From the NCBI GenBank assembly GCA_021786375.1, contig JAJYNL010000076.1, positions 1 through 50,831 of the forward strand: 50,831 nt of DNA, in the 5' to 3' direction. This stretch comes from Actinomycetes bacterium. GTDB taxonomy: Bacteria; Actinomycetota; Acidimicrobiia; Acidimicrobiales; Acidimicrobiaceae. Position 1 is the stretch's first letter; each line of letters starts with the position of its first letter. Positions 2,084 through 50,831 of this stretch are shown here, piece by piece. The translations under genes were made by a program, and so were the position numbers. The notes beneath the pieces are model-generated. The model saw only the letters and a list, made by a program, of their open reading frames with translations. It did not search any database and was not told the origin of the DNA.

Positions 2084-2120
2084 TCCATCCTCGGTTCGTA
2101 GAGGAAATCAAGTACACGCC

Positions 2121-2759
2121 TCACGGCGTGCTGTTGGCAAGGTTTCGCATCAGCACCGTGTTTGTCGCGTTCACAATTGGGCCGTTCGTGTTTGGCTGTA
2201 CGGATAGTGAAACAATTACCGATTCGATGGTCAGGGGGCTCGGATCGGTTACTCCCGTTGTTGGTACCGACGTGGTGGTCGCAATCGTTCCACCGCTGGG
2301 TACCGGCAGGTAGCTAAAGACGTTCTGGCTGACGAGATTGGAAATGGAAGTCCTAATCACACCCGTGCCGACCACGGTCTCGGTGAGCGAGCACGGGCAG
2401 GTGCCGGTTGTACCCGGAGAGGCCTGGGCGTTGACTTCGATCACTTTGCCAGTGCCGTCGGTGGTGTAGAACTCGAGCTGCGTCGGCGAGGCGAGCACAA
2501 TAGGGCTCACTTGGTTGATCCCGGTCGGGATCAATGCGTCGCGGATGTCCTTGGTCAGGACATTCATGGACAACAGAGCCGAGGTTGTTCCTCGGGCCCT
2601 GGCGCTCACGTTGCTCTGGGTTCCTTGGAAGTTGTAGATCGTCACTGCAACCGCCCCGAAGATGACCATGAATATGGCCATCGCAATGAGCAGTTCGACG
2701 AGGCTGAATCCCCTGTCTGCCAACTCTTGTTTGGCCTGGCGATCGTGGTGCTGGTTCAT
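2121..2759 (-). CDS. Prepilin with N-terminal methylation motif (PilW/GspJ-like, 212 aa)
   Basis: Type IV pilin-like minor subunit. After a short polar leader comes the class III signal DRGFSLVELLIAMAIFMVIF at about residues 15-34. A prepilin peptidase would cut after the Gly, leaving Phe at position +1 and the conserved Glu at +5. The hydrophobic helix runs on to about residue 45 and is followed by a pilin-like beta domain. Cys-Pro-Cys near residues 124-126 could form a disulfide. The length fits PilW/GspJ-type minor pilins. It sits between a PilV-like gene (21 bp upstream) and the PilX-like gene (37 bp downstream), so the three probably form one operon that primes a pilus or pseudopilus. 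The upstream ribosome site is weak. No prepilin peptidase or assembly ATPase is present in the window. Confidence 0.85.
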   Translation of the reverse strand: MNQHHDRQAKQELADRGFSLVELLIAMAIFMVIFGAVAVTIYNFQGTQSNVSARARGTTSALLSMNVLTKDIRDALIPTGINQVSPIVLASPTQLEFYTTDGTGKVIEVNAQASPGTTGTCPCSLTETVVGTGVIRTSISNLVSQNVFSYLPVPSGGTIATTTSVPTTGVTDPSPLTIESVIVSLSVQPNTNGPIVNATNTVLMRNLANSTP

Positions 2760-2780
2760 TGGCGCAGGGTGCTCTTGTGG

Positions 2781-4232
2781 CTAGAAGCTGATCGTGACGG
2801 TGGCAAGGGGTTGCGATGCCGAAAGAAAGGTCAGCGCTGAACCGAGAATCGTTCCGCTCGAGTTGACGACCTCGACGTTGAAGTATCCATAGGGAGCGTA
2901 GGGCGTTGCGGCCGCGACGCTCGCGTCGCCGAGGTTCGAGACCGCGGTTACCGCCGACTGTGGGTTGGGGCAGGCGGCGCCTGATCCGTTGTCCACCGGT
3001 TGGAGCAACAAGGCGTCACCACTAAGGGACGGAGAGGTGGTCGAGGGCGAAGTTGTATCGACCACCGTCGCCGAGATCTGGCCATAGTACGGGATTATCT
3101 GAGTGGTGGTTTGGGGAGCGGATGGCGCATACGCCGGCGAGGGAGTTGTGAAGGGGTATTGGGATGTGCTCGTGTTGATGAAACAAGTGCCATACCAATA
3201 CGTGTATCCGCCCGTGTAGGGGTAAAGAGAGCCCACCGAAGAGGTCGCGGAAAAGGTGGAGGCGGGATAGGTGAGCACGCCGCTCGTTTTAGTCAGGTTC
3301 GGATTTGAGAGCGTGAGCCCGAATTCCTGGGCCACCTGCATCGAGTTGTTGTCACTTGTGGGCAGCTGGACGGAGAAACCCTGGTCGTACTGGAACTGAG
3401 CCGGCGTTGTCGTGCCGGCCGTCACCTGCCATGTGGGAGCATACGGAGCCGAGGCTGAGGTTTGCGGAGTCGACTGCGCAAGAACGTAGCCCTCGTAGCT
3501 CAGGTCGACGTTGTAATTGCCCACCGGGAGGTTGGCGAAGAAGGCGCAGCCGTTTACGTCGGTCGAGGCGGCCTCAACTCCCTGCACCATGGCGCCCGTA
3601 GAGGAGTATCCCGAGATGCTCACTTGCACGTTCGGGTCACCGTTGCCGGCCGCGTTCTGCACCAGCACTGAGAGATTGCCGGTCTGGGTGTTGTACGCAC
3701 CGTACGGCGGGTTTATTACTCCGCTTTCGGTGACCGGGGTCGCCAGCCTTTGGTTGGTCCAAGTGACGGTGACCGTGGTCTGGATGACCGGGTTGAGGTT
3801 GGGGGCGTTTTCCGCGGCCGAAGCCGCACAGGACCCACTCGAGAAGGTTCCTGCACTCCAGCGCATGTTGGTGGCGATTGTGTAAGTGACCCCGCCAACC
3901 TTCTGGGTACTGGTGACGGTATTTCCGACATATTGTTGCGCCATGGCGTTGAAATTGGTGGTGCTGTTCGAGAGCGAGCGCAGGTTCTCCAGCTGGGCGG
4001 TGGCAAGGTTTGCCGCCACGACCCTATTGCGGTTGTCGCCGCTGACACGGACTGTGGCCTCGAGGAGGGCTGCGGCCGGGATAAGTGCGAGCAAAAGCAT
4101 CACGGAGGCGACGACAACCCCGACGATGGTGAACCCGTCGTCTGAGCGCCTAGCTACTCTCACTCCATCATGCTCCGGCACGTGATTAATTTCGACCCCC
4201 AGACCGCGAACCTTGAGTCGATCATCTTCCAT
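2781..4232 (-). CDS. PilV-like prepilin with carboxypeptidase-regulatory-like domain (483 aa)
   Basis: First gene of the pilin-like cluster. Residues ~32-55 contain a prepilin-type segment (DGFTIVGVVVASVMLLLALI). The position usually held by Glu+5 is Gly/Val here, so processing may be atypical. A pilin helix follows (AANLATAQLENLRSL). Residues ~185-255 look like a carboxypeptidase regulatory-like or CnaB-like beta sandwich: a Gly-Asp-Pro-Asn-Val turn, then TDVNGCAFFANLPVGNYNV and a YEGYV strand. Such domains are common in surface adhesins. The long tail is Ser/Thr/Tyr-rich. The start is uncertain: the ATG at 4232 has only a modest GAGCGGG upstream, and later GTG codons would give a shorter, more usual pilin leader. 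It is probably the tip or adhesin-bearing subunit of the fibre (inference). Confidence 0.75.
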   Translation of the reverse strand: MEDDRLKVRGLGVEINHVPEHDGVRVARRSDDGFTIVGVVVASVMLLLALIPAAALLEATVRVSGDNRNRVVAANLATAQLENLRSLSNSTTNFNAMAQQYVGNTVTSTQKVGGVTYTIATNMRWSAGTFSSGSCAASAAENAPNLNPVIQTTVTVTWTNQRLATPVTESGVINPPYGAYNTQTGNLSVLVQNAAGNGDPNVQVSISGYSSTGAMVQGVEAASTDVNGCAFFANLPVGNYNVDLSYEGYVLAQSTPQTSASAPYAPTWQVTAGTTTPAQFQYDQGFSVQLPTSDNNSMQVAQEFGLTLSNPNLTKTSGVLTYPASTFSATSSVGSLYPYTGGYTYWYGTCFINTSTSQYPFTTPSPAYAPSAPQTTTQIIPYYGQISATVVDTTSPSTTSPSLSGDALLLQPVDNGSGAACPNPQSAVTAVSNLGDASVAAATPYAPYGYFNVEVVNSSGTILGSALTFLSASQPLATVTISF

Positions 4233-5732: not shown

Positions 5733-7178
5733 GTGGTTGTGGAAGAAGCATCTGCAGGGTCGAACCCTGAGCGCAAGCGAGCGCCAAGGGGAGATCGCCC
5801 CTATCGCCCCCGTGAGTCCGGTGGTTTCGAGGGCGAGCGCCGAGGCCGGGGTGACTCCGGTTATCCCGACCGCGGAGAGCGCAACTTCGGCCCGCGCCGC
5901 GAATTCCGGCCAAAGACCGGTGGCGGCCGCAACTTCGAGCGCCGTGGAGAAGGCGGAGATCGCCCCTATCGCCCCCGTGAGTCCGGTGGTTTCGAGGGCG
6001 AGCGCCGAGGCCGGGGTGACTCCGGTTATCCCGACCGCGGAGAGCGCAACTTCGGCCCGCGCCGCGAATTCCGGCCAAAGACCGGTGGCGGCCGCAACTT
6101 CGAGCGCCGTGGAGAAGGCGGAGATCGCCCCTATCGCCCCCGTGAGTCCGGTGGTTTCGAGGGCGAGCGCCCCGAGGAGCGCGGACCCAGGCGCAGACCA
6201 TACGTACCCGGCTCTGGTTTTGGTTCGGAGCGAGGTCATCGGGACGGTTACGCCCCACGCACGGGCCAAGGCCGGGCTCGCAAGCCACGAGGTTCGGAGC
6301 CCGGGAGGGAGGCCCCCCAGGGCGACCGCGGATACGGGCAGGGTGTGCAGCGGAAAGGCTGGGGAGCACTCACCGCCAAAGGAGCTGCGCGGATACGTCC
6401 ATTTGACGGAGCCCGCAGGTACGTGGGTGGGGACGAGGCGGAGCACCGGCACACGGGCGCCGCGCCCATGGATGAGTGGGTGGCCGACCCGAAGACTGAA
6501 GGCACTGCGACCAAGGCGCCCACACGTCGACGTGACCGGACCGGTTACTCGGTGGAGGCGATACTGCGCGAGGAAGTTCCACGAGGCTTGTCGGCCTACA
6601 AGACCGATGCGTTGCGAAAAGAGCTCACCGAGGCGATTCACGCCTACGAGGTGGATCGTTATCGCGATGCGAAGCGTTATCTGGATGCGGCGACGCGCTT
6701 TGCCAATGCCTCTCCGAGCATCACCGAACTGCTCGGGCTTACCCACTACCGGTTGGGCAACTGGTCCGCTGCCATTGGCTACCTCGAGTCGGCTTCCGAG
6801 ATGAGCGGCTCGCTCGACCAGGGCCCGGTGATGGCGGACTGCTATCGTGCACTTGGCAGGCATGACCGCGTCAAGGAGATCTACGAGGAGGTGGGCCGCG
6901 TGTCGCCCTCCCCAGAGGTCATGGCCGAGGCTCGCATCGTCTACGCCGGCTCGCTGTCGGATCAGAAGGAGTATGCGGACGCGATAAAGCTGCTCTCCCG
7001 CTTCGAGAAGCCGAATCGCACCAAGCCTCGCCTAATCGACTTGCGCCAGTGGTACATGCTCGGCGACCTGTACGAGAAGGTGGGCGAGATTGAGCATGCC
7101 CGACGGCTCTTTGGCCTGGTGGCCAAAGAGGATCCGAGCCTCTACGACGTCGCCGAGCGCCTGGCTGATCTGCGCTAG
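5733..7178 (+). CDS. Arg/Gly-rich tandem-repeat protein with C-terminal TPR-like domain (481 aa)
   Basis: Two-part protein of unknown function. Residues 21-130 are two identical 55-residue units (beginning [20 protein letters not shown]) and a third partial unit reaches about residue 147. They are rich in Arg, Gly, Glu, Phe and Tyr, like RGG-type disordered tails that bind RNA or drive condensation. A linker rich in Arg/Gly/Pro follows to ~residue 265. Residues ~285-480 form helical pairs of TPR type, for example [40 protein letters not shown] and [20 protein letters not shown]. The GTG at 5733 is the furthest upstream start, and its ribosome site is poor. TPR domains bind proteins, so an RNA-linked scaffold is a fair guess. 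It precedes fructose-bisphosphate aldolase by 65 bp. Confidence 0.8.
5790..6171 (+). repeat. Exact 165-bp tandem repeat (2.3 copies) inside a coding gene
   Basis: Copy 1 starts at 5790/5791, copy 2 at 5956 and a partial copy 3 at 6121, which stops matching after 6171. The period is exactly 165 bp (55 codons), so copy number can change without a frameshift. The two full copies appear identical base for base, third codon positions included, which points to recent duplication or gene conversion. Because the period is a multiple of three, other frames on both strands also stay open; these are shadows. Confidence 0.95.
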
Positions 7179-13139: not shown

Positions 13140-13308
13140 GGCACGCGCTTTCTAAGAACACTCTAATGTTGATTTAATACTCTGTTCCCAAGGGTCATGA
13201 AGGCTCATACGCGGGTCAGCTGATCGGGTTCGCGGTATTTCACCGACGCACCCGCGGAAGCCTGCAGAGGTTGCGTGGCTCCGGTGCAGGCATGCAGGAG
13301 AGGCGCGC

Positions 13309-13821
13309 ATGAGGGACTCCAAGTCACTCTCTGCCACCTTGGGCAGGGTCTTGGGCATAGGGGTGCCGATGGTGGTGGGCGGGGTCATAACGGCCGCCTA
13401 CCTCCAACTCGGCGTGCCCCGCTCACCCGGCGTCGCCATTCCCAAGGCGGTAGAGGTGGTTGCGCCATCCTCCTCGGTGCCGAGTACGCCGGGGTCCGGT
13501 GTCACGACTACCTCCGAGGACCGTGGTTCCTCCGACGCAGGCAAGCTGATCGTGGTTTCGCCAACGAATCCGGTGCTCGCGTACGAGTCTGGCTCGTCGT
13601 CACCGGTCGAGATAAATCCCGAGGCCAACCCGGAGGGTGGCGACAAGAGTTCCTCCGGCTCCGAGGCCACGACCACCACAACCAGCGCTGCCACGACCAC
13701 CACAACCATGGCCACCACCACCACGGCCGAGTCGACGAATTCGAACCAGCCTTCCAGCGATGGTGGCTCGGGTACCACAACCACCGCCAAGTCGTCCGAC
13801 TCGTCGGGCGGCGACAATTGA
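13309..13821 (+). CDS. Membrane-anchored Ser/Thr-rich protein, unknown function (170 aa)
   Basis: Small protein with a cytoplasmic N-terminus, one hydrophobic segment (~12-34, LGRVLGIGVPMVVGGVITAA) and an extracytoplasmic tail of low complexity. The tail contains runs of Thr separated by Ala/Met (about 115-145) and is rich in Ser, Gly and Pro, as in cell-wall-spanning stalks of actinobacteria. There is no enzymatic motif. Its TGA overlaps the ATG of the following histidine kinase (TGATG), so translation is coupled and the protein may act in the same signalling pathway. The AT-rich stretch near 13165-13185 (containing taatact) is a candidate promoter for the operon; this is not proven. Confidence 0.75.
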   Translation: MRDSKSLSATLGRVLGIGVPMVVGGVITAAYLQLGVPRSPGVAIPKAVEVVAPSSSVPSTPGSGVTTTSEDRGSSDAGKLIVVSPTNPVLAYESGSSSPVEINPEANPEGGDKSSSGSEATTTTTSAATTTTTMATTTTAESTNSNQPSSDGGSGTTTTAKSSDSSGGDN

Positions 13822-15368
13822 TGGCCCCGCCAGGTGGCGCGGAGGTGCCACTCGAGCTGACGGCCCTCGGCCCGGAACCCCCGGCCCCAGAGAGTGTCGA
13901 GGCGCTTGCCCCGCAAGCACGGGGTAGGCGGCGCCTAGGGCCGGCGCGACGGATGGGGCGCTGGAAGATCGGAACTGTGCCGCGGCTGATAGCGGGTCTA
14001 TCCATCGTCACGGCTGCCGTTTTCGGCCTGGTGGCGGTACAGGTGGCCCAAACCTTCAAGTCGCACGCCACGGCAATCACGCGCGGAATACTCGTGGATG
14101 ATCTCGGGGAATATAGCCGCGCATTGGAAGCCAGCCCCGGCTCGTCCATCTTCGGGACCACCTCCAGGTATCTGGCCAGCCACCAGGTCGATGCCTCTCG
14201 GGCGATCATGGTCGGGATATCCGGAGGCGCCACGCTTGGCTCCCGCGGCTCTCAGCAGCTACTGCAATCCAGCCAGGTCAAGGCGTGGCTTGCGCACGCC
14301 CCGGCCGCCACGACAATTCAAGGCCTGCCTGCGGGGCAGAAGCAGTACCTCATCCTTGCTTCGCCGATCAGGCAGGGCACCAAGGTGGTGGGGGTCTTCA
14401 TTGTGGCGGCTGATGAGACCAGCTTGCTTGCCGAGAGCCGGCAGGTGATGCTGCTTGCCATAGCCGAGGCCGCGATCGCGGTGGCCTTCACCGTGGGCAG
14501 CGGGTATCTGCTTTTGCGGCGGGTGCTCGGAATGGTCGGCGGGATAACCCGGACGGCGGCGGGGATTGCCGAGGGTGATTTGAGCAGGCGCCTCGATTAC
14601 CGCGGTCCCGACGACGAGATGGGCACCATGGCCAAGACCTTCGACCAGATGATCGATCGCCTGGATGCGACCATGGAGGAGCAGCGCCGGCTGCTGTCGG
14701 ACGTTTCCCACCAGCTCAAGACCCCTTTGACCATAGTGCGCGGGAATCTGGAGCTGATCGAGAGGTTGGGTGAGCCGCTGAGCCCCGAGAACCAGGAGGG
14801 CCTCCAGTACGCTCTGGATGAGATTTCCTATATGAGCCGCCTGATCGACCAGCTCCTCATGCTGGGCAGGACCATGGAGCGTGACTTCCTGCAGCCCGAG
14901 CCCGTGGACCTGCGCGCCTTCATGGCCGACGTTTTTGCGGCGGCTTCGGTTATGGCGCCACGTGCATGGCGCTACGTCGAGCCTCCTGATCTGGTCTTGC
15001 TCATCGACGCGCCCAAGTTGCGCGGAGCAATCCTCAATCTGGTCGAGAATGCGGTCAAGGCCACCGGTGAAGGGGACGAGATTGAGGTTGCGGCCCGTGC
15101 CGACCAACACCTGCTAACGATATCGGTCGCTGATTCAGGTCCTGGCGTACCGCCTGGAATGGAGGCGGCAATCTTCAGGCGCTTCGAGAGGGGATCACGG
15201 ACCTATGCCAAGGGAGCGGGACTTGGGTTGTCCATCGTCGATGCGGTGGCAAGAGCGCACTCCGGTGCGGCCCTCGTCGGCCGCTCGCACCTCGGAGGGG
15301 CGGAGTTTTCCGTGGTTCTCCCGCTCAGTCTGGCAAACGGCTACGGCCAGACCGAGAGTCGGGTTTGA
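13821..15368 (+). CDS. Sensor histidine kinase, HAMP-HisKA-HATPase (515 aa)
   Basis: Membrane sensor that phosphorylates the response regulator encoded next to it. Order: basic/Pro-rich cytoplasmic start, membrane segment 1 (~55-77), extracytoplasmic sensor (~78-215), membrane segment 2 (~216-240) and HAMP. The HisKA domain follows with phospho-acceptor His297 in SDVSHQLKTPLT. The ATPase has an N box (LVENAVKAT), a G1 box (DSGPGVP) and a G2 box (AKGAGLGLSIV). The ATG at 13821 overlaps the stop of the Ser/Thr-rich gene by one base; a longer upstream frame is that gene's shadow. The regulator gene starts 49 bp downstream. Confidence 0.93.
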   Translation: MAPPGGAEVPLELTALGPEPPAPESVEALAPQARGRRRLGPARRMGRWKIGTVPRLIAGLSIVTAAVFGLVAVQVAQTFKSHATAITRGILVDDLGEYSRALEASPGSSIFGTTSRYLASHQVDASRAIMVGISGGATLGSRGSQQLLQSSQVKAWLAHAPAATTIQGLPAGQKQYLILASPIRQGTKVVGVFIVAADETSLLAESRQVMLLAIAEAAIAVAFTVGSGYLLLRRVLGMVGGITRTAAGIAEGDLSRRLDYRGPDDEMGTMAKTFDQMIDRLDATMEEQRRLLSDVSHQLKTPLTIVRGNLELIERLGEPLSPENQEGLQYALDEISYMSRLIDQLLMLGRTMERDFLQPEPVDLRAFMADVFAAASVMAPRAWRYVEPPDLVLLIDAPKLRGAILNLVENAVKATGEGDEIEVAARADQHLLTISVADSGPGVPPGMEAAIFRRFERGSRTYAKGAGLGLSIVDAVARAHSGAALVGRSHLGGAEFSVVLPLSLANGYGQTESRV

Positions 15369-15417
15369 AGGTCGGGTGGCCGTGGTTGGGCAGCCCTGAG
15401 CTGATCAAGGAGCAAAG

Positions 15418-16110
15418 ATGAACATCGTCATAGTGGAGGATGATCCACAGATCGCCAGCTTCCTTTCGCGTGGACTTCGCGCGGAGGGCTACGCGACCAG
15501 CATCATCTCCGACGGCGAGTCGGCGGCGCGCGCCGTTCCCACCATGGCCGACGACATCGACCTGGTCCTGCTGGACCTTGGCCTACCGCTCCGCGACGGC
15601 AAGTCCGTGCTTTCCCAGTGGAGGGCGGAAAAGTTCGTCAAGCCGGTCATAATCCTCACCGCGCGCGACGAGGTGGCGGAGAAGGTGAAGGGCCTGAACG
15701 CCGGCGCGACCGACTACGTCACCAAGCCGTTCTCTTTCGATGAGCTCCTGGCGCGAATTCGCGCGGCGCTGCGGACCTACGATTCAGCGTCGCTCACCAC
15801 GCTCGAGGTTGCCGACGTAACCTTCGACATGCTCTCGAAAGTCGCATTCCGCGGCGGCAAGCGTATCGAGCTGGCTCAGCGAGAGTGGTCGCTGCTGGAG
15901 CTCTTCATGCGCAATCCGCACCAAGTGCTTTCCCGGATCCAGATCTTGAACCATGTGTGGGACTACTCCTTCGATCCCGGATCGAACATCGTCGATGTCT
16001 ACGTTGGCTACCTGCGCAAGAAGATAAACATCACGGGGCACGAGCCTCTGATCCAGACGGTGCGGGGGGCAGGCTACCGCTTCATACCCCCATCGTCAAA
16101 GTTCAGCTGA
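15418..16110 (+). CDS. Response regulator, OmpR/PhoB family (230 aa)
   Basis: DNA-binding partner of the preceding kinase. The receiver domain (1-120) has acidic residues EDD at 7-9, phosphorylation site Asp53 in LVLLDLGLPLRDG, the Thr of ILTAR and the Lys of VTKPFSFDEL. The winged-helix output domain (~130-228) shows RIELAQREWSLLELFMRNP, VLSRIQILNHVW and the IQTVRGAGYRF wing. The ATG at 15418 follows AAGGAG. Its TGA lies inside the 8-bp palindrome TCAGCTGA, which also holds the stop of the convergent ferritin-like gene. Targets are unknown; self-regulation of the operon is usual for this family. Confidence 0.95.
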   Translation: MNIVIVEDDPQIASFLSRGLRAEGYATSIISDGESAARAVPTMADDIDLVLLDLGLPLRDGKSVLSQWRAEKFVKPVIILTARDEVAEKVKGLNAGATDYVTKPFSFDELLARIRAALRTYDSASLTTLEVADVTFDMLSKVAFRGGKRIELAQREWSLLELFMRNPHQVLSRIQILNHVWDYSFDPGSNIVDVYVGYLRKKINITGHEPLIQTVRGAGYRFIPPSSKFS

Positions 16111-17197
16111 GGTGCTCTTGGTCCTCCATCGCGGCGCGGATGGAGGACGACACCTCCGCCTGGCGGGCCTCGTCGATCTCGGTCGCCACACGCTCGTCGT
16201 CAGCCATAAGCGCGTCGAGGTCGGTATCGGCGAAGCCGAGCACGCCCATCTTCTCGAACGCGGAGCGCATGGTCTCCCCAAACAGGCCGATGTCCTGTAA
16301 GACCGGAACGATACGGGTGAAGAGCAGGTTCCGGAAGGCCTGTTGTGTCTCCGAGCGCTCCACCCATTCCAGGCACTCGTCGGTGCCCAGACCCAGGGTG
16401 TCCCACACCTCCTGGGCCAGGAAGCGGCTGCGCATTAGGTTGCAGGCCTCCGCGCAGAACTCCTCGCGTTCCTTCCGCTCGTGCTCCGAGAGCCGCGGAT
16501 AGTAATCACGTAGTGCGTTTCGCCCAAAGGCCACATGCCTTGCCTCGTCCTGCATCACGTAGGCGGTTAGCTCCCGGGCCAGCTGGTTGCCGGTAAGATT
16601 GCGGATCATCCCGAAGGCCGCCAGCGCCAAGCCCTCGATCAACACCTGCATGCCCAGATAGGTCATATCCCAACGCGAGTCGCTGAGCACCTGGTCCAAG
16701 ATGCTGCGCAGGTTCGGATTTATGGGATAGGCAAGCTCCAGCTTGTTCAAGAAGGTGGAGTACACTTCGACATGGCGTGCCTCGTCCATAACCTGGGTGG
16801 CGGCATAGAACTTGGAGTCCATGTCCGGGACGTTCTGCACTATCTTCGCGGCGCAGATCAGCGCACCCTGCTCCCCGTGCAGGAATTGGGAGAATTGCCA
16901 GGATGCCAGGTGGAGCTTCAACTCGCCGCGCGCGGCTGGGTCCATGCGCTCCCATACCGGCGAGCCGTAGATCGGTACGTAATAGTCCTCGCTGCCCAGC
17001 GGGTTTTCCAGATCGACTTGGTGTTGCCAGTCGATGCGGACCTTGGCGTCCCATTGGCGGCGCTTGCCCTTGTCGTACAAGGAAAGCAGCTTCTCCCGGC
17101 CCGAGTCGTAGTCCCAGCTGAACTGCACGGCACCGGTGTTGTCCTGGGTCTTCCAGCCGGTCAGCTCCGCCGGAACGGCATATCGCTTAACGCCCAT
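16103..17197 (-). CDS. Ferritin-like di-iron protein, possible oxygenase (364 aa)
   Basis: Soluble helical protein with two E/DEARH pairs typical of carboxylate-bridged di-iron enzymes. Ligands in order: Glu109 (LHGEQGAL), Glu139 and His142 (MDEARHVE), Glu188 (LIEGLALAAFG), Glu218 and His221 (QDEARHVAFG). This is the R2-like/ferritin-like four-helix arrangement; the substrate is unknown, and oxidases, N-oxygenases and desaturases share this core. The ATG at 17197 follows AGGGGGAAT; a TTG at 17215 is possible but has no ribosome site. The 3' end overlaps the response regulator by 8 bp on the opposite strand. A decayed copy of its 5' end occurs at about 23.3-23.6 kb. Confidence 0.85.
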   Translation of the reverse strand: MGVKRYAVPAELTGWKTQDNTGAVQFSWDYDSGREKLLSLYDKGKRRQWDAKVRIDWQHQVDLENPLGSEDYYVPIYGSPVWERMDPAARGELKLHLASWQFSQFLHGEQGALICAAKIVQNVPDMDSKFYAATQVMDEARHVEVYSTFLNKLELAYPINPNLRSILDQVLSDSRWDMTYLGMQVLIEGLALAAFGMIRNLTGNQLARELTAYVMQDEARHVAFGRNALRDYYPRLSEHERKEREEFCAEACNLMRSRFLAQEVWDTLGLGTDECLEWVERSETQQAFRNLLFTRIVPVLQDIGLFGETMRSAFEKMGVLGFADTDLDALMADDERVATEIDEARQAEVSSSIRAAMEDQEHLS

Positions 17198-17460
17198 TGC
17201 ATTCCCCCTGGGCAAAAGCTAGCACAGGGCCTGCTGTTCGCTAATGCCCCTTCCAGCGCCGGTCAGCTCTCGCTGGACGCGTCCCCGCGGGGCGTGATCC
17301 AGATGCGTGAATGTGCAAGCCCGGGTGGGCCACCCGGGCCAGGATCAGGCATAGGAAGATCCCAAATAGTTGGGCCGGGGCCCCAAGACGGTCGGATCCC
17401 ATGGAAGCTATGTCCAGGCCGGCCATGGTGCCGCCCGGTTCGGGCTGGACCAGCGGGAGA
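16950..17460 (+). repeat. Left copy of a diverged ~0.5-kb direct repeat
   Basis: Covers the 5' end of the ferritin-like gene, the upstream spacer and the 3' end of the zinc-ribbon pseudogene. It matches 23330-23850 in the same orientation with mismatches and small indels. Strong shared blocks are tgtcgtacaaggaaagcagc versus tgtcgtccaaggaaagcggc, gtcagctctcgctgga, gggtgggccacccgggccag and agacggtcggatcccatgga. The match weakens at both ends, so the borders are approximate. Confidence 0.8.
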
Positions 17461-17725
17461 CCTCCTCGAGTCGGTACTGGACCTGCGGTCCGGTAGTGGC
17501 GTCGACGAACGCGATCCTTACCTGCGGGCTGGTTCGCCTGCATCCGCCTGTCCCCCGCACCGCGGTTCCCCGCGCCACCCGGCTCTGCGCCTTGGCCAGG
17601 GCACGGGGTCGAGCGGATCGATTCGCTTTGGAAAGGTACGATCCTCGGCACGCACCTGGACAGTTCGGTTGGGGCGAGGTGGCACTCCAGCCCGCACTCC
17701 CGCTTGGATTCTCCACCCTCGACAC
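17241..17725 (-). pseudogene. Decayed copy of the zinc-ribbon protein gene at 23660-24280
   Basis: One minus-strand frame encodes GTMAGLDIASMGSDRLGAPA and AQLFGIFLCLILARVAHPG, nearly identical to the C-terminus of the intact 206-residue protein. Further upstream a second frame gives VRIAFVDATTGPQVQYRLEE, which aligns with VRTSMVIYTDGPTGLHMVNR of that protein. The gene is therefore frameshifted in the middle. Its tail also differs after AHPG through a frame change, and no zinc-ribbon N-terminus (CxxC pairs) can be found. No intact product is expected. The upstream limit is approximate. Confidence 0.75.
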
Positions 17726-17938: not shown

Positions 17939-18685
17939 TCACGGTTGGTGCGGGCGAGGTGGTTGTGCTCCGCACTGCCAAACACCCCGTTCCGCGGCCT
18001 CGGCCAGCCTTATCGCCTCGCGCTGGGAATGCACGCCGAGTTTCACCAGTATCCAGTGGATGTGGCTGCGTACCGTATGGATCGAGAGGTAGGTCTCGCG
18101 CGCGATCTGTTCGGCGTCCAGTCCCATTCTCAGTTTTGCAAGCACCGTCCCCTCAGCGGCGGTGAGGTGCGAGAGGCTCTGACGCAGCTTTGTGACCTGG
18201 TCCAGATGCGCCTGCAGTTCACGCAACATCAGATCGCGTTCGGCAATCGAGACTGCGCACTCGCCCGCAGCAATGGTATCGATCATTCCCATCAGCTCGC
18301 GGAAGGGTCTTGTCTTGTTGAAGATGGCTGCAGCGCCGTCAGCCAGGCAGCGGGCCAGACGGATTCGGTCGGATACGCCGGTCAGGACGACCACCTGGTA
18401 TCCGACCTGCATAAGCGGCGACACCAGATCTGCACCATCGAGGTCCGCACTCAGGTTGAGGTCGAGAAGTGCAAAGTGGCTAAAGGTGGGTCGATTCGCG
18501 ACGAACGCGTCGGCCTCGGCAAGCACGCCCGCGGCACTCAGCGGCCTCTGGACTGCGACGCCCACTTCGATCGACTGGGCGTGCAATAAGCTGGCAAGGC
18601 TGCTGGTAACCAGGTCATGGTTGTCAATGAGCAGGGCAAAAATCCCCTGCCGTTTCAGTCCCGCCGCCGGGCGTGCGGCCAGCAT
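17939..18685 (-). CDS. Response regulator, NarL/LuxR family (248 aa)
   Basis: Two-domain transcription regulator. Receiver domain at ~15-135: acidic pair Asp21/Asp24 in LLIDNHDLV, phosphorylation site Asp75 in FALLDLNLSADLDG, Thr in VVLTGVSD and Lys in IFNKTRPF. After a linker, the LuxR-type HTH lies at ~172-232 with LTAAEGTVLAKLRMGLDAEQ and YLSIHTVRSHIHWILVKLGV. It is the last gene of a five-gene minus-strand unit, 14 bp after the histidine kinase that presumably phosphorylates it. Likely targets are the export genes upstream in the same unit (inference). The start is the furthest upstream codon, with overlap-free spacing. Confidence 0.9.
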   Translation of the reverse strand: MLAARPAAGLKRQGIFALLIDNHDLVTSSLASLLHAQSIEVGVAVQRPLSAAGVLAEADAFVANRPTFSHFALLDLNLSADLDGADLVSPLMQVGYQVVVLTGVSDRIRLARCLADGAAAIFNKTRPFRELMGMIDTIAAGECAVSIAERDLMLRELQAHLDQVTKLRQSLSHLTAAEGTVLAKLRMGLDAEQIARETYLSIHTVRSHIHWILVKLGVHSQREAIRLAEAAERGVWQCGAQPPRPHQP

Positions 18686-18699
18686 GGTCAGTCCCGCCC

Positions 18700-20286
18700 T
18701 CAGGCCTGGAGTTCGCGGGCTTGCGAAGGAGCCATAGCCGCCGGAGGAACGGTGTAAGGCGCAGGAGCGGCGACAAGGTGCATCTCGAATCGGGCTCCAC
18801 CTCCTGGTGCGGTCCCGGCGATCAACTCTCCCCCTTGATTGTCCAGCAATGCCCGGGCGATCGCCAAGCCCAGACCGTGGCCGGGGGACTGGGTGTGAGG
18901 GCTACCCCGCCCTGGATTCACGCCTATCGGTGTGTGCTCATGTCCGCTGCCAGGACCATTGTCGCAAATCCGGACGACAACCTCGGACCCGCATTTTTCC
19001 ACCTCCACCACCGCAGTGCAGCCTGGGGCATGGATGCGCGCGTTGTCCAGGAGAACTCTCAGCGCCCGTGCAGTAGCCGCCTGGTCTCCGCGGGCGATGA
19101 CCTCGTCCCCTCCGGCGATCAACTCCACGTCGAGTCCAAGCGCACGTGCGTTGGATACCTCGACGTTTGCGGTCTCGACCGCGTCGAAGTTCCCTTCGGT
19201 TGTCTCGGCGGCCAGAACCACCCCTGCCAGCGCCTCAGCTCCGCGATGGACAAGCCTTACCGCCTCACGGGCCTTCGCCTCATCCTGGAAGGACTTCTCG
19301 CTGGCATGGAGGAGCTCAACGCCCGCCTCGACGACAAGCAGCACCGATCTGAGCTCGTGATTGGAGTTGCGCAGCCTCGCCTTCTCCTCTTCCAGCTCGT
19401 GCTCGAGCTTGCTGGCCGCCAAATCCGCCTCGTGGGCCGCTTTGTCACGCTCGGCGGCTCGCCGGCGGAATTCGAGCGCCAGGCCGATGCAGAGACAGGC
19501 CAGGGCGATGAAGCGCAGCAGTGATGCCGCAAGGGGCCCGCTGGCGAGCGGGGGCCGGATCGCGGCTCCGGCGACTCCTGCCTGGGCCAGCCCAAGCAGC
19601 GAGACGGAGATGTAGGCGTCAACCTGTTCGTGCTTTATCCACCAGGCACTTGCGTAGCCGACCGCCCCGGCCACACAAACGCTTGCTGCCACCGCTCCTG
19701 CTGCGGTCGCGCTCAGGAGCCCGCCCCTGAAGAACAGTTCGATCAGGACGATGACTCCGGCAGCTTCAGCCGCAAGCGTCGCCGCCTGCCAACTGCGCAA
19801 TCGTGAGGCGTTCGGGCGGCTAAGAAGTGTCCAGAGGGACGGCAGGCCCATGAGCGAAACCCCGGTTGCCAGGCAGGCGAAGGACACGAGGGATATGCCT
19901 GGGCGCCCGGCGATGCCCCTTGCAAAGCTTTGTACGAGGTACCAGGCCTGAAACGAGCCAAGCAGGAGCAAGCCGACTCCAGCCACGAGCCAGCGCGGGG
20001 ATTCGCCCTCGCTCTGCCATAGAACAAGGCATCCCGTGGTTGCGGCAAAGGCCAGTGCGAGCGTGGCGAGAGCGACAAACTGGGCGATTTGGCTGTTCTG
20101 CGTGTCGCCGAGCGCCGGAAGCCGTACCTGCAGGAACCAGATCGCCAGTGCCGGGAGTACGCCGGTGGCGACGGCCCCCCAAATCCCCGGTCGCGCGCGC
20201 CGCCTTGAGCCGACCCTGCTGGAACCCCAAAGGCGCCCGCTCCTGGCGTGCCGAAGCGTGCTATTGATCGTCGCAGTATTGCGCAC
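18700..20286 (-). CDS. Membrane sensor histidine kinase (528 aa)
   Basis: The N-terminal half holds about seven to eight hydrophobic segments (~35-265), a membrane-embedded sensor without a large outside domain. A coiled-coil-like stretch (~275-305, rich in Glu/Lys/Ala) leads to the phospho-acceptor His310 in NSNHELRSVLLVVEAGVELL. The ATPase domain follows with N box LLDNARIHAPG, G1 CDNGPGSG and G2 PGHGLGLAIARALL. The C-terminal ~25 residues are Pro/Ala-rich. The GTG at 20286 is chosen because AGGTGA lies 5 bases upstream; a frame running to 20475 encodes an unlikely Cys/Trp/Gly-rich leader. The LuxR-type regulator follows 14 bp later. Confidence 0.88.
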   Translation of the reverse strand: MRNTATINSTLRHARSGRLWGSSRVGSRRRARPGIWGAVATGVLPALAIWFLQVRLPALGDTQNSQIAQFVALATLALAFAATTGCLVLWQSEGESPRWLVAGVGLLLLGSFQAWYLVQSFARGIAGRPGISLVSFACLATGVSLMGLPSLWTLLSRPNASRLRSWQAATLAAEAAGVIVLIELFFRGGLLSATAAGAVAASVCVAGAVGYASAWWIKHEQVDAYISVSLLGLAQAGVAGAAIRPPLASGPLAASLLRFIALACLCIGLALEFRRRAAERDKAAHEADLAASKLEHELEEEKARLRNSNHELRSVLLVVEAGVELLHASEKSFQDEAKAREAVRLVHRGAEALAGVVLAAETTEGNFDAVETANVEVSNARALGLDVELIAGGDEVIARGDQAATARALRVLLDNARIHAPGCTAVVEVEKCGSEVVVRICDNGPGSGHEHTPIGVNPGRGSPHTQSPGHGLGLAIARALLDNQGGELIAGTAPGGGARFEMHLVAAPAPYTVPPAAMAPSQARELQA

Positions 20287-20513
20287 TCCCCTCACCTCGT
20301 TTCGGGCGGCCAAGCCGTCCCTGGAGCCGCTATCCACCCCACAGCAAAGATTCCCGGTCGCCCCGCTGGCGGTGAAGCGCGAATGTCCGCACCAGGCAGG
20401 ACCCGCTTGCCAGCGCAGCTCGCCGGCGCAAGTGTCCCAACCGGCCGGATTCGGCACTGTCTGGGAACTTCCCACGGTTTCCGGGAGACAGGTGCACGCA
20501 GGGTCATGAACTG

Positions 20514-21671
20514 TCAGCTGGCTTCCGGACTGGCTGTCGTGGCCGTAGCGCTCACGGCTGGTGCGTTCTGCCGGTGGCTGATCCCCGCCTTGGATCTGCG
20601 AGCCGGCGCTGCCACGATGGTGGCGAAACGGGCCGTGTACCTGTAGCCCACGAGTCCGTCGAGAACCAGGTAAGAGGTGGTGTCTCCCACGTCCAGCTGC
20701 AGGATCGGCACCTCAAGCCGCTTGGCCAGCCTGGCCAATGCCGGCATCGAATCGACCTCCACCACCCTGAAGTCACCACCGGGCCATCGCTCTATCTTGA
20801 TCAGGCTTCCCTGATGCTGCCAGGCGATCTGTAGCCGCACGTCGTGCCGAAGCTTTCCCCTCAGGCGCGATGTCAGGAGTGCGGCGATCGCCGCTAGCAC
20901 AGTGAAGCCCGCTAAACCGATGTCGCGGGCGGAGGAGACAGGCAGCATGGCCGGCCCCACTCCGATCCTGGACTGGACTGGCGTGGTTGAGAGAACCTCC
21001 TGCGTTGCGCTTTGAACGAACGACGCCGGCGACACACCGGTGGCGCTCACCGTGCCGCCAGCCTGGGTGGGGACGATTGAGGTGGCGCTGGCCTGGAAGG
21101 CATAGGGGGAGCCAAAGTGCAGCTTGAGAGGCTGGCCACCCGCGATACCTTTCAGCTGCACTTGCGGTTCGACCGCGAGAGTGTAGAGCCCTGGCCCAAG
21201 CGCTGCATCGAGCTCTCCGATTCGCTCCTGATATGCGGCCAATGGCAGCTCGATCTGGATGGCGGCGTTGGGGCCATTGAAGTGCTGTGGCCCCATGCTG
21301 GCGATGATGCGGCTGATGCCCTGGTCCTCGACCGCCAGCACCAGGCTGATGGTGCCGGCAAGATCCTCGTTGCTTCCTCCGGCAAGCCGGTAGCGATAGT
21401 CAAAGCGAACCGCGCTGAGCTGGGAGATGAAAAGCGGCATGCCGCTCGTCGCTCCTCCGGTTCCATAGATCGAGTTCGAATCCGGAGTGCCGGTATAGGA
21501 AAGCACGCCCCGGCTGGTGTAGACGGTTGGGCGCCCGGCCAAGCTGTGTACCGGCCGCAATAGAGCGGCGCCGCCAAGTAACCCGAAGGTGAGAACTCCG
21601 ATCATGCACAGGCCCGCAACCGTGGCAAGCGTACGCAACCCGTGCAGTTGGCCGGCGGCATCAACTCCCAT
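20514..21671 (-). CDS. DUF5305-like membrane protein (385 aa)
   Basis: Protein with a signal anchor (~14-37, TLATVAGLCMIGVLTFGLLG), an extracytoplasmic beta-rich domain (~45-240) and a second membrane segment (~247-268). The cytoplasmic tail (~270-385) contains KIERWPGGDFRVVEVDSMPA and LDVGDTTSYLVLDGLVGYRY. This layout and its place beside an ER-type signal peptidase match the DUF5305 family known from archaea and actinobacteria; I assign the family from memory of its layout, not from a search. The ATG at 21671 follows AGGAGGT and overlaps the end of the signal peptidase gene by 11 bp, so translation is coupled. Its function is unknown, perhaps as a partner or substrate of the peptidase. Confidence 0.7.
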   Translation of the reverse strand: MGVDAAGQLHGLRTLATVAGLCMIGVLTFGLLGGAALLRPVHSLAGRPTVYTSRGVLSYTGTPDSNSIYGTGGATSGMPLFISQLSAVRFDYRYRLAGGSNEDLAGTISLVLAVEDQGISRIIASMGPQHFNGPNAAIQIELPLAAYQERIGELDAALGPGLYTLAVEPQVQLKGIAGGQPLKLHFGSPYAFQASATSIVPTQAGGTVSATGVSPASFVQSATQEVLSTTPVQSRIGVGPAMLPVSSARDIGLAGFTVLAAIAALLTSRLRGKLRHDVRLQIAWQHQGSLIKIERWPGGDFRVVEVDSMPALARLAKRLEVPILQLDVGDTTSYLVLDGLVGYRYTARFATIVAAPARRSKAGISHRQNAPAVSATATTASPEAS

Positions 21672-22155
21672 AGCCGTACCTCCTCAGACGCGTGCGCCGC
21701 AGCTTTCGCTTCGGCCAGAACACATACATTCCTGAGGTGCCCAGAATCGTAGCGCCGACGGCCGGCTCGCGCCAGAATTTCACGACTTTCCCAAACTGAC
21801 CCAGGTCAAGCCACAGCCGGCCGACGATCTCGGAGGCGCCGGGACGCGAGGGGTCGACAAAGGTGTTGTTCTCGCCTTTGAAGATATACCTGCCTGCCTC
21901 CTTGCCGATTATCCGGTGGAAGATCGGGGCCTTGAGTTGAGGGGTTGTGTAGGCGGCGATGGCTCCCACCGGGTATGTGGCACTCTTCCTGACAACCACC
22001 AGGTCGCCGGTTCTGAAGGCGGGAAGCATGCTGGTTCCCGAAAGGAATATGTAGGTGTCCTGACCGCCAATGGCGGTTGGCGCAAAGCCCCACCAACCCA
22101 GAGCGGTGATAGTTGCGGCGAGGATCAGGCGCCGCATGGCTCGGAAGGGGTTCAT
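21661..22155 (-). CDS. Signal peptidase I, SipW/ER type (164 aa)
   Basis: Membrane protease that removes signal peptides. An N-terminal membrane segment (~9-29) is followed by the catalytic box FLSGTSMLPAFRTGDLVVV with Ser42. The general base is His80 in APIFHRIIG, where bacterial LepB has Lys; this Ser/His pair marks the SipW/archaeal/ER branch. Box D/E-like residues follow (FKGENNTFVDPSR), and there is a second hydrophobic segment (~135-152) before a basic tail. The ATG at 22155 is preceded by GGAGA; a TTG at 22191 could add 12 residues. It lies between a small exported protein gene and the DUF5305-like gene, so a dedicated substrate nearby is likely. The window also encodes a bacterial-type LepB at 40.5 kb. 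Confidence 0.88.
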   Translation of the reverse strand: MNPFRAMRRLILAATITALGWWGFAPTAIGGQDTYIFLSGTSMLPAFRTGDLVVVRKSATYPVGAIAAYTTPQLKAPIFHRIIGKEAGRYIFKGENNTFVDPSRPGASEIVGRLWLDLGQFGKVVKFWREPAVGATILGTSGMYVFWPKRKLRRTRLRRYGYGS

Positions 22156-22184
22156 CTCTTCTCCGGCTTTCGAGAGACACCGGT

Positions 22185-22217
22185 GCGGCAAGTACCCGCC
22201 AAGTGGGTACTTGCCGC
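22185..22217 (-). promoter_or_regulatory. Perfect 13-bp inverted repeat between exported-protein gene and signal peptidase gene
   Basis: gcggcaagtaccc (22185-22197) pairs fully with gggtacttgccgc (22205-22217) around a 7-nt loop. It lies 38 bp past the stop of the small exported protein gene and ahead of the signal peptidase start. No T tract follows on the minus strand, so it is more likely an mRNA stabiliser, processing site or partial attenuator than a full terminator. It could let the upstream gene be made in excess over the peptidase. It could also be an operator; the sequence alone does not decide. Confidence 0.75.
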
Positions 22218-22254
22218 CCTCAACGAGGACACGCTCGGCGTGTAGCGGTGAGGA

Positions 22255-22731
22255 TTACTGGTTGACCTCGATCTGGAGGCTGTCGATCCACCCTTGGTTC
22301 GCCGGACCGGGGCCGTTCACGGGAACGGCGGGGTTAAGCGTGCAGGTGAAATCGGTGGTGTAGGAGTTGGGGTAAGCCGATATCGCGCACCCACTCCAAG
22401 CCATCAGCGGCATCCCTCCCGGAGGAGGTGGCGGATCCAGCCTGACGAAGCCTTGCTGCGCCCGCAGCTCACCACTCCACGTCGTGGTCGCACGAAAACT
22501 GACCGAGACCACGCTCAAGTGGCTGGGCGCGATCGGACCGTCGTCGACCAGAGGCCCTGGCGGCACAGCCACGTTATAGTGGATGTTGCTGATGGCATAC
22601 CCGTCGACCACCTGATTGGATACACCCTCACCGGATACCGGCTGTGAGTTGGTCGCCAGGAAAGCGGTTCCACCTCCGGCCAGCAAGGCGCCGGCGACGA
22701 GCGGTGTTAGAAGCCGTCTGCGAAAGATCAT
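22255..22731 (-). CDS. Small exported protein, possible SipW-type substrate (158 aa)
   Basis: First gene of the five-gene unit. The N-terminus is MIFRRRLLTPLVAG followed by ALLAGGGTAFLATNSQPVSG: an Arg-rich start, a hydrophobic core and a GGGTAF(x)ATN-like end that recalls signal peptides cut by SipW in TasA/camelysin proteins. The mature part (~115 residues) is beta-rich, has one Cys pair (SGCAIS, FTCTL) and a Pro run, and ends in SLQIEVNQ. The ATG at 22731 follows AAGGAGGG with a 5-base spacer; the longer frame upstream is not used. It is probably a surface or matrix protein, but TasA homology is suggested only by the signal peptide and the neighbouring peptidase. Confidence 0.7.
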   Translation of the reverse strand: MIFRRRLLTPLVAGALLAGGGTAFLATNSQPVSGEGVSNQVVDGYAISNIHYNVAVPPGPLVDDGPIAPSHLSVVSVSFRATTTWSGELRAQQGFVRLDPPPPPGGMPLMAWSGCAISAYPNSYTTDFTCTLNPAVPVNGPGPANQGWIDSLQIEVNQ

Positions 22732-23300
22732 TGTTCCCTCCTTGTCCGGAGCCCGCCCTGGCCGCTTTGAACCAGCTGTACAAGCTCGTCGGAGAGGCGC
22801 CGGGCTTACCAGATCCTGGTGGAGTCGATGGAGACGACCGACCCTCCCCGCGAATTGCGGCGAAGCCGCACTTCGGGAAAAAAAGATACGGAATTGCTGC
22901 CGAAGTGGCATCCACAACTTTGATGGTCTTTTGGTGGCTTCCCGTAAACCCGTGTCCCGTTGACTGGTTTGCGGTCGCTGGATCGAGAGCGAGGTGCCGT
23001 CGCAGCCGTGGGGTGGCCTGGAGGACCTGGAGCCGGCTAATCGCGCAAAGGCGCGCGCGGATTTGTCGGCCGGAGATGTATTCCGCGTCTTTTGGAACCA
23101 TTCCCCGCCGTGAGCGGCGGCTCCGATACTCAGGTGACCATTTGTTGCGAGCTCGGCGTATCCCTGGCTGCAGAGAAGCCCCCCGGTGGCCAGGACAAAA
23201 AGGGCTCATTTGAACCGGGCTGTGGCCTGCACAGCGGTTTCCCGGGTGATGATCGCCGGCTCGCCATTCCCGGTTGCAAGGCGCGTGGTCAGGTAGGTGT
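22732..23300. other. Upstream region of the export unit, no intact gene
   Basis: About 570 bp. It should carry the promoter of the five-gene minus-strand unit. Towards 23300 it grades into sequence that may be strongly decayed ferritin-like gene, but the match is too weak to draw a border. No RNA gene was seen. Confidence 0.4.
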
Positions 23301-23610
23301 CCATGAGCCTCGCCTTCCCGGCATGGTCTGTCACGGTAGAGCACAAGCGCACATGATTGGAGAGCAAGGCACCGTCCTTGCCGAGCGGGCCTTCAGTTCG
23401 GCTTCTTGTGGTCAGTCGGTGTGGACCATGGTGCCCTCTTGGCAGCCCTTGCCTTTGTCGTCCAAGGAAAGCGGCTTCTCCCGACCCGGGTCATAGTCCA
23501 AACTGAACTTCACCTCCCGGGCGTTGCGCGGTGAAGTCCGGGGTTTTCCGGCCGGCCTGCTTCAGCGGAGCGGAAAATGCCCAATGCCCATTGTGTGCCC
23601 TGTTTTGGCA
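23300..23610 (-). pseudogene. 5' remnant of a ferritin-like di-iron gene
   Basis: Minus-strand reading gives KFSLDYDPGREKPLSLDDKG, which aligns with QFSWDYDSGREKLLSLYDKG at residues 25-44 of the intact protein at 16103-17197. The frame stops shortly after, at a TGA where the intact gene has the Trp codon of RIDWQ, and it is out of frame with any start on the 5' side. Nucleotide similarity continues to about 23310 with indels. None of the di-iron ligands is encoded in a readable frame. It is a dead fragment left by the duplication. Confidence 0.75.
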
Positions 23611-23850
23611 ACAGGTGGCGCGCCCTGCCGCTTTCCACGGACGCCCATGCCAGTGCCGGTCAGCTCTCGCTGGATGCGTCCAGGCAGATGTGATCCAGAT
23701 CCGTGAATGTGCAACCCGGGTGGGCCACCCGGGCCAGGATCAGGGATAGGAAGATCCCAAACAGTTGGGCCGGCGCGGCAAGACGGTCGGATCCCATGGA
23801 AGCTATATCCAGTCCGGCCATGGCGCCGCCCGCTCTAGGCGAGGCAAGCG
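23330..23850 (+). repeat. Right copy of the diverged ~0.5-kb direct repeat
   Basis: Same orientation as 16950-17460. It spans the ferritin-like remnant, a rearranged spacer and the 3' end of the intact zinc-ribbon gene. Together the copies bracket the 17.9-22.7 kb unit. The spacer between the two gene ends is the least conserved part. Borders are approximate. Confidence 0.8.
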
Positions 23851-24280
23851 CGACGACGTCGCCAAGACGGTTCACCATATGCAGGCCGGTAGGGCCGTCG
23901 GTATAGATGACCATCGAGGTCCGGACGTCGTCGTTGACCGCGGCCAGAAGGCGCTCGGGAGCACCTGGCTCGACACGTGTGCGCACAACTACGGTGGCGG
24001 CGCGAGCCATGCCCTCATCCAGGAGCGCGACGCTGTAACGGCCTTGGCGCAGCATGGGGAGCAGGGACAGCCGTGGCTCACTGGAGCCACGTTCATAGAT
24101 GCGCCAGACCCCTCGTTCCAGCCTTGCATCCGCGAGCGCCGCGCCGGGCGCGCTGAAGGCAAAGTGCGTGGAGTGGGGGGTCAGCTCGTAGGTTCCGGCC
24201 CCCTGAAGCTCCTTGCCGCAGAACGCGCACCGGGTCATGGATACGGCGGCCGGAAGGCCGCAGGACTGACAGGTTTTCAC
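23660..24280 (-). CDS. Zinc-ribbon protein of unknown function (206 aa)
   Basis: Starts MKTCQSCGLPAAVSMTRCAF, and the CxxC pairs (residues 4/7 and 18/21) form a zinc ribbon. The middle (~25-150) is a mixed beta region without known motifs: WRIYERGSSEPRLSLLPMLR, VYTDGPTGLH-type turns and NRLGDVVALASPRAG. The C-terminus has a hydrophobic stretch (LAAPAQLFGIFLSLILARVA). The GTG at 24280 overlaps the stop of the LOG-type gene (GTGA), so the two are translationally coupled. A frameshifted paralogue lies at 17241-17725. The function is unknown; coupling to a LOG-type nucleosidase is the only context clue. Confidence 0.7.
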   Translation of the reverse strand: MKTCQSCGLPAAVSMTRCAFCGKELQGAGTYELTPHSTHFAFSAPGAALADARLERGVWRIYERGSSEPRLSLLPMLRQGRYSVALLDEGMARAATVVVRTRVEPGAPERLLAAVNDDVRTSMVIYTDGPTGLHMVNRLGDVVALASPRAGGAMAGLDIASMGSDRLAAPAQLFGIFLSLILARVAHPGCTFTDLDHICLDASSES

Positions 24281-50695: not shown

Positions 50696-50831
50696 CTAGC
50701 TTTGGTCAGCCTCTGTAGCGGGAGCTTCTTCGGCCACGGCCTCAGCCTCTGTAGCGGGAGCTTCTTCGGCCACGGCCTCAGCCTCTGTAGCGGGAGCTTC
50801 TTCGGCCACGGCCTCAGCCTCTGTAGCGGGA
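50696..50831 (-). CDS. C-terminal end of a protein with Pro/Ala/Glu repeats (partial)
   Basis: Only the last 44 residues lie in the window. They consist of the 12-residue unit PATEAEAVAEEA repeated head to tail, ending PATEADQS then TAG. The rest of the gene lies beyond 50831. Such acidic Ala/Glu tails occur on several actinobacterial ribosomal and structural proteins, but the identity cannot be judged from the tail. The downstream hairpin supports this being the true 3' end. Confidence 0.8.
   Translation of the reverse strand, partial: PATEAEAVAEEAPATEAEAVAEEAPATEAEAVAEEAPATEADQS
50707..50831 (-). repeat. 36-bp exact tandem repeat (3.5 copies) at the window edge
   Basis: Units start at 50707, 50743, 50779 and 50815 and look identical. 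The period equals 12 codons, so unit number can vary without frameshift. The array continues past the window end. It is coding (PATEAEAVAEEA), not a CRISPR array: no spacers separate the units. Confidence 0.95.

Follow-up and report, generated by a model that had tools for sequence, protein, structure and literature searches.

According to the available text of PMC7395162, the sipW-bsaABCRSD operon of Clostridium perfringens encodes the signal peptidase SipW, the filament protein BsaA and the two-component system BsaRS. Mutants of sipW, bsaA, bsaR and bsaS lose the pellicle biofilm, the transcripts of sipW disappear in those of bsaR and bsaS, and the beta-rich filament needs SipW (PMC7395162). 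The portions available of the reports on Bacillus subtilis describe assembly of TasA by donor-strand exchange of the N-terminus (PMC9674648), with TapA as the starter for TasA (PMC10151520). Archaeal bundling pili are cited in both of these papers, and archaeal threads are covered in the accessible part of PMC9715654. The DNA analyzed here (the window, a stretch of 50,831 nucleotides of contig JAJYNL010000076.1) belongs to the 2.83 Mb genome (G000, contig C2) of an actinobacterial relative of acid-loving iron bacteria. Its minus strand carries at 17939-22731 five genes for a small exported protein, a SEC11/SipW-type signal peptidase, a DUF5305-family membrane protein, a membrane histidine kinase and a NarL/LuxR-type response regulator, which we read as a putative regulated export cassette.

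In comparison with the C. perfringens operon, the cassette likewise brings together a SipW-type peptidase, a neighboring secreted protein, and a kinase and regulator. Thus, the statement in the preliminary description that no described system has this full set was too strong. However, the available text of PMC7395162 mentions no DUF5305 protein and presents BsaD just as a "putative secreted protein", so that the DUF5305 partner is, as far as these passages tell, the sole addition of the cassette. The C. perfringens genes are also described as one operon, whereas the kinase-regulator pair is convergent on the cassette in five relatives of the window. The tapA-sipW-tasA operon of B. subtilis, in the parts of the reports at hand, resembles the cassette in having a dedicated SEC11-like peptidase beside an exported beta-sandwich protein (predicted here) and an accessory protein. 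It differs in being a three-gene operon without two-component genes and in having TapA in place of a DUF5305 protein with two transmembrane helices, and the TasA family models do not match the exported protein of the cassette. Among the titles listed by the literature searches, no SipW-type system of this sort was found described for an actinobacterial lineage; the cassette would extend regulated SipW-type surface-protein systems to one.

The preliminary description had likened the coupling with DUF5305 to archaeal arrangements. In two haloarchaeal loci (L063 and L064), a SipW-type peptidase adjoins exported proteins as in the cassette. However, DUF5305 was not found in either locus by profile or hhalign, and one DUF5305 region had no tblastn match among plasmids. 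On the basis of these two loci and the plasmid search, the archaeal resemblance was not confirmed for DUF5305, and an archaeal DUF5305 arrangement was set aside. The SipW-type locus of L064 (7427-10318) has a PAS kinase and a response regulator close by, which may parallel the linked regulation.

The five genes are real and conserved as a unit. They lie where the preliminary description had placed them and encode the exported protein (22255-22731, 158 aa), the peptidase (21661-22155, 164 aa), the DUF5305-family protein (20514-21671, 385 aa), the kinase (18700-20286, 528 aa from a conserved GTG) and the regulator (17939-18685, 248 aa), all on the minus strand. Comparison of three congeneric genomes showed purifying selection on all five, with ratios of nonsynonymous to synonymous substitution rates (dN/dS) of 0.09-0.41 (0.12-0.18 for the exported protein; computed on the last 519 codons for the kinase). 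In the same comparison, the conserved kinase start is the GTG at 20286 rather than the longest-frame start at 20475. This leaves a gap of 227 nt after the DUF5305 stop, so that the short spacers or overlaps noted earlier hold at the other three junctions (99 nt, an overlap of 11 nt, and 14 nt) and fail at the DUF5305-kinase junction.

The peptidase has a catalytic Ser/His dyad in place of Ser/Lys, as is characteristic of the SEC11/SipW type (S26). The dyad recognized in the preliminary description corresponds to Ser42 and His80, which together with Asp101 are invariant across nine homologue rows. A profile of the peptidase compared with solved structures gave SEC11A (E 2.6e-16) and SEC11C as the best relatives. 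Its nearest NCBIfam model is the archaeal-type TIGR02228 (E 1.5e-13), with a score of 50.9 bits just under the cut-off of 51.85; the peptidases of L015, L016, L021 and L047 pass this cut-off and that of L014 falls below it. The window peptidase scored 16.4 bits against the cut-off of 190 of the Bacillus SipW equivalog NF046067, and a hydropathy scan found no membrane segment over threshold in it. An ordinary signal peptidase I is also encoded in the window, at 40456-41034 (TIGR02227, 160 bits).

The genome profile searches scored a subset of the first-look candidates (4 for each genome in the class and phylum searches), and their tallies are lower bounds, with the own genome included. The DUF5305-like protein matched in 11 of 198 genomes of the order and the exported protein in 7 of 198; a nine-row profile matched at least 14 of 395 genomes in the class and at least 6 of 396 in the phylum. 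The loci compared number 24 besides the window and represent 23 genomes, as L018 and L051 belong to the same one. Duplicates were removed (L057 is L014, and L058 is L013), L022 was excluded after its weak match failed to be confirmed with the profile, and two weak partial class matches (G235 and G255) stand outside the set. Some loci trained the profiles that scored them, which guarantees their match; the peptidase profile was built without L020, L046-L056 and L065-L068.

Peptidase and DUF5305 form one fused frame in 14 of the 24 loci and are directly adjacent, with the peptidase upstream, in 8; contig ends cut the other 2. The exported family is present in 21 of the 22 assessable loci, and the remaining one (L066) begins at a contig end. 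With an E limit of 1e-8, SEC11-type peptidases occur in 36 of 198 class genomes. Of 41 SipW-profile matches, 30 were scanned (window included, flanks up to 1.5 kb): five have DUF5305, the same five have the exported family and 25 have neither, an outcome favored by the training of the exported-family profile on four of those five loci. By these sequence comparisons, the exported protein, the SEC11/SipW-type peptidase and DUF5305 are a near-obligate set. The neighborhood check proposed in the preliminary description, which would have counted against the unit had the genes not co-occurred, also found all five together elsewhere. They occur in all six loci from a peptidase scan of named genome contigs, including Aciditerrimonas ferrireducens MV1 (L058), and the gene set is present in eight loci when the window is counted.

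The hydrophobic signal segment of the exported protein spans residues 7-25 and ends in GGGTAFLATN, in agreement with the GGGTAF(x)ATN signal end reported earlier. Two cysteines (115 and 130) are conserved, and searches of Pfam and NCBIfam gave no match at E up to 1. In the AlphaFold2 (AF2) model, the mature protein is predicted to have six strands of at least 5 residues in a generic beta-sandwich. The preliminary description had suggested a likeness to TasA/camelysin and a comparison of structures; a beta-sandwich was indeed predicted, but no specific fold match emerged. TapA (8aif) appeared in the fold search only at E 0.68. The TasA/camelysin identity was set aside: the Pfam, NCBIfam, PDB profile and fold searches yielded nothing usable.

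The cassette product is likely a surface or matrix protein, and fibre formation would follow the SipW precedents by analogy. The exported protein could instead act in the envelope as a monomer, for example as a beta-sandwich that binds a metal or ligand, in which case SipW-type processing would simply be its route of maturation and no fibre would form; we regard this as unlikely, though a serious rival. Its best neighbor in the VIA structure comparison is CrdA (Z 6.2, root mean square deviation 3.2, 89 residues); the FtrA/P19 copper proteins come lower, at a Z of about 5, interspersed with domains of sugar enzymes. CrdA of Helicobacter pylori is controlled by a two-component system, and most loci have a single exported gene, both of which favor a monomeric factor. 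However, a VIA Z under 8 may, by the tool's own note, reflect just a common arrangement, and the Met/His ligand set is not conserved: His51 is the sole ligand candidate conserved among the closest seven exported proteins and is not retained in the wider family. For these two reasons, the copper-protein reading (CrdA, P19) was ranked low. In addition, the exported-family paralogues in L047 (two) and L021 (three) fit major and minor subunits rather than a lone envelope factor.

The kinase has seven hydrophobic segments and an HATPase_c domain above the cut-off. The regulator has a GerE helix-turn-helix domain over the cut-off (E 1.5e-10) and a receiver domain of 26.7 bits, under the cut-off of 30.2. 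The phosphoacceptor residues, His310 of the kinase and D74 of the regulator, are invariant in 4 rows, as is K123 of the receiver (both regulator residues numbered on the 247-aa form). By these sequence features, the pair qualifies as a two-component system. An OmpR-type two-component system at 13275-16110, left of the cassette, was considered and set aside. Its regulator also adjoins the AurF-like gene that flanks the cassette in six of seven regions that lack the cassette, which marks it as an old neighbor.

Strong matches to both the kinase and the regulator profiles were found in 7 of the 8 unfused loci (L013, L014, L015, L053, L054, L055 and L056). The window, L053 and L054 have the pair downstream of the cassette and codirectional with it. 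However, the pair lies on the opposite strand and converges on the cassette in five relatives (L055-L058 and L015), indicating a linked module that is not always one operon. The inclusion of kinase and regulator in the unit, as first described, thus stands for the linkage and not for a common orientation; in the window, all five genes could share one transcript, yet this is not the rule. Across seven loci (L053 left out), pairwise identities of the exported protein correlated with those of the regulator (rho 0.89) and of the kinase (rho 0.76), values that shared ancestry alone also yields.

The cassette is probably self-regulated. It is improbable that the pair is a mere neighbor with other targets and that the export genes are outside its control, although the reversed pair in the five relatives and the 227 nt gap in the window would suit such an arrangement. 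So would the 14 fused loci, in which no strong match to this kinase was found (just E 1.4e-4 in L065; the regulator profile matched in L017, L021 and L065), and the eighth unfused locus, L048. There, a different reading frame follows DUF5305 and the contig ends 308 nt downstream, so that the pair is not seen. The lack in L058 and L015 of the promoter motif described below points the same way. Against a mere neighbor stand the occurrence of the pair in 7 of the 8 unfused loci, its position inside a block that relatives lack, and the motif itself, which is above the shuffle control and near-unique in the genome.

The motif is a candidate operator, CCATCAAAGTTGTGGATG, at 22909-22926 on the minus strand. 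Its core TGTGGATG, an 8-mer shared among promoters, starts 185 nt upstream of the exported gene in the window, and the extended pattern is CCACAA-N3-TTGTGGATG. The core is conserved upstream of the exported gene in the window and in L053, L054, L055, L056 and L057. Upstream of the kinase, the motif also occurs in the three loci whose pair is separately promoted (L055-L057); it is missing there when the pair comes behind the cassette, as in the window, L053 and L054. The kinase sites of L056 and L057 are palindromes with perfect identical arms (CCACAA-N3-TTGTGG; CCACAACAGTTGTGG and CCACAATAGTTGTGG), and that of L055, whose kinase start was placed at about 9225 by homology, is reversed with two mismatches.

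The 8-mer, which was found post hoc, is present in 7 of the 12 promoter regions considered, each of 300 nt. These comprise six exported and six kinase/regulator promoters, with the genus trio counted once (L053 and L054 together with the window) and with L015 and the window kinase promoter, which has no 8-mer, included. In 500 dinucleotide shuffles, the best count of any 8-mer was 6 once and 5 in 22. A narrower control without L015 and the window kinase promoter gave 7 of 9 promoters against a maximum of 4 in 300 shuffles. A motif search by 12-mers that tolerated two mismatches did not rise above its shuffles. In the own genome of 2.83 Mb, the extended pattern has one match at 0 mismatches, none at 1 and 18 at 2, or 19 in all, against 28 obtained with the reversed control. 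A second copy of the bare 8-mer lies at 9580 in the window. The L058 regulator differs around the TVRS helix, and L056 shares one of the changes yet retains the site. The candidate dedicated operator and the near-obligate DUF5305 partnership would be the new elements of the cassette, and a direct test could be confined to a single palindrome, a single regulator and a single target cassette.

Seven bases are common to CATCCACA and TTATCCACA, which we take as the DnaA box. The motif might therefore be a DnaA-box-like element (ATCCACA core) that ties the cassette to replication or growth state rather than the operator of the linked regulator. We consider this quite implausible, given the perfect palindromes that precede the kinase gene of L056 and L057 and the C preceding ATCCACA, which is fixed in seven sites, though the sites were picked by that 8-mer.

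The DUF5305-like label holds for the family better than for the window protein. Six of the nine family members have a PF17231 match at an E threshold of 1, the best at E 3.7e-12, but the window protein alone scores 18.8 bits, under the Pfam gathering cut-off of 29, and a PF17231 search of the own genome gave no match at 0.01. From the AF2 model and hydropathy, the protein is predicted to have a transmembrane helix at 15-33, an extracytosolic beta domain of the immunoglobulin/fibronectin type III (Ig/FN3) kind at about 49-232, a second transmembrane helix at 250-268 and a small cytosolic alpha/beta domain at about 287-348. Six Foldseek matches reached E 0.001 or better: five chains of streptococcal serine proteases, and Af_0446. 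In the VIA comparison, transglutaminase 2 was best (Z 8.2), followed by chains of the Sec61-TRAP translocon (up to 7.8), which we take to be TRAP-alpha, and Af_0446 (7.4). Many Ig/FN3-like domains thus tie with the ectodomain, and therefore no family can be named. A PDB sequence search with the protein returned a single match, a ribosomal protein at E 0.29.

No paper naming DUF5305 was found in the literature searched. The cassette would provide its first functional context, as a near-obligate and often fused partner of a SEC11-type peptidase in this actinobacterial group. The eukaryotic signal peptidase complex consists of SEC11 with accessory subunits; the cassette resembles it in pairing a SEC11-type catalytic subunit with a membrane-bound beta-domain partner, which does not imply homology of DUF5305 to the accessory subunits. 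If the partnership is physical, such an archaeal/eukaryote-like peptidase with a beta-domain membrane partner bears on the origin of signal peptidase accessory subunits. More tentatively, and with doubt prevailing, DUF5305 may be a general subunit of bacterial SEC11-type peptidases, whose membrane-tethered beta domain takes the freshly cut subunits and builds the surface fibre. Cleavage and polymerization would then be carried out by one machine, switched here by a single-target two-component system that travels along. The PF17231-matching part of the window protein (residues 256-345) spans the second transmembrane helix and the predicted cytosolic domain, a C-terminal region aligned across the entire family, as would suit a reporter that senses export outside and signals inwards instead of a peptidase or assembly partner, but this is very unlikely with DUF5305 fused to the peptidase in 14 loci, none of which has a strong match to the linked kinase.

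In the mechanism proposed for the cassette, the small protein would leave by Sec with a SipW-type signal, and the SEC11-type peptidase would cut it at the putative GG[TSA]-AF region. The DUF5305 protein, beside or fused to the peptidase, may act on the outer face as a substrate-holding, anchoring or assembly partner. The freed beta-sandwich subunits would probably polymerize through the new N-terminus in a TasA-like manner, and the membrane kinase and LuxR-type regulator would govern the cassette through CCACAA-N3-TTGTGGATG. We hold it to be on balance probable, by a modest measure, that the locus is a self-contained cassette for the regulated export of a surface protein, probably matrix or pilus-like, with this full mechanism. 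The regulated assembly of a surface or matrix fibre had been put forward in the preliminary description. The conserved unit of peptidase, exported protein, DUF5305 and linked two-component system agrees with that proposal; the fibre itself is hypothetical, and no TasA-type match was found.

Several results weigh against this mechanism. Both AF2 models are of moderate confidence, with a predicted local distance difference test (pLDDT) score of 65.9 for the exported protein (7 sequences) and 65.6 for the DUF5305 protein, and Foldseek found no PDB match of the exported protein model at E up to 0.001. None of 12 exported-family members matches the SipW-cognate signal model TIGR04088 at E up to 1, though it does match two haloarchaeal proteins. 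The same 12 gave no camelysin-named match in Pfam at E up to 10, a result that holds if the searched Pfam set includes the camelysin model. DUF5305 fits the other four proteins least in the comparison of pairwise identities (rho 0.40-0.53). L058 and L015 carry the same genes but no motif, and 12 further exported-gene promoters searched, L048 among them, are also without it. Sigma-70 promoter-like sites and terminators are at chance level. The fused loci and L048, as given above, also count on this side.

The cassette lies in a block of ~5.9 kb placed between an AurF-like gene and a zinc-ribbon gene and bracketed by two direct repeats that are 76% identical over 528 columns. Copy A (16993-17504) consists of the decayed 3' end of the zinc-ribbon gene and the intact 5' end of the AurF-like gene, and copy B (23379-23900) of the 3' end of the zinc-ribbon gene and the decayed 5' end of the AurF-like gene. 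The repeats thus combine complementary intact and decayed halves of two adjacent genes. L054 shows both copies, one cut by the contig end, and L053 starts too late for copy B. The AurF gene is present in 16 of 30 family genomes (own included), and eight regions were compared, one of them from the L054 genome. The seven others, five from the genus of the window organism and two from its wider family, have no cassette at this site, and the flanking genes are direct neighbors. The simplest reading of the sequences is one gain of ~5.9 kb with target duplication, for example by single-crossover integration. The block, with empty sites in relatives, suggests that the export and two-component genes moved together. 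Only five long genes were called between the repeats, and mobile-element genes were not specifically searched for.

Elsewhere in the window, three genes at 257-4232, two of which have prepilin-like N-termini (GFSLVELLIAMAIF and GFTIVGVVVASVMLL) recognized by eye, suggest a type IV pilin-like minor pilin cluster. A 165-bp tandem repeat (2.3 copies, 99% match) lies at 5786-6171 within a long basic reading frame. At 50706-50831, a perfect 36-bp tandem repeat of 3.5 copies reaches the contig end, in a frame with a repeated PLQRLRPWPKK peptide.

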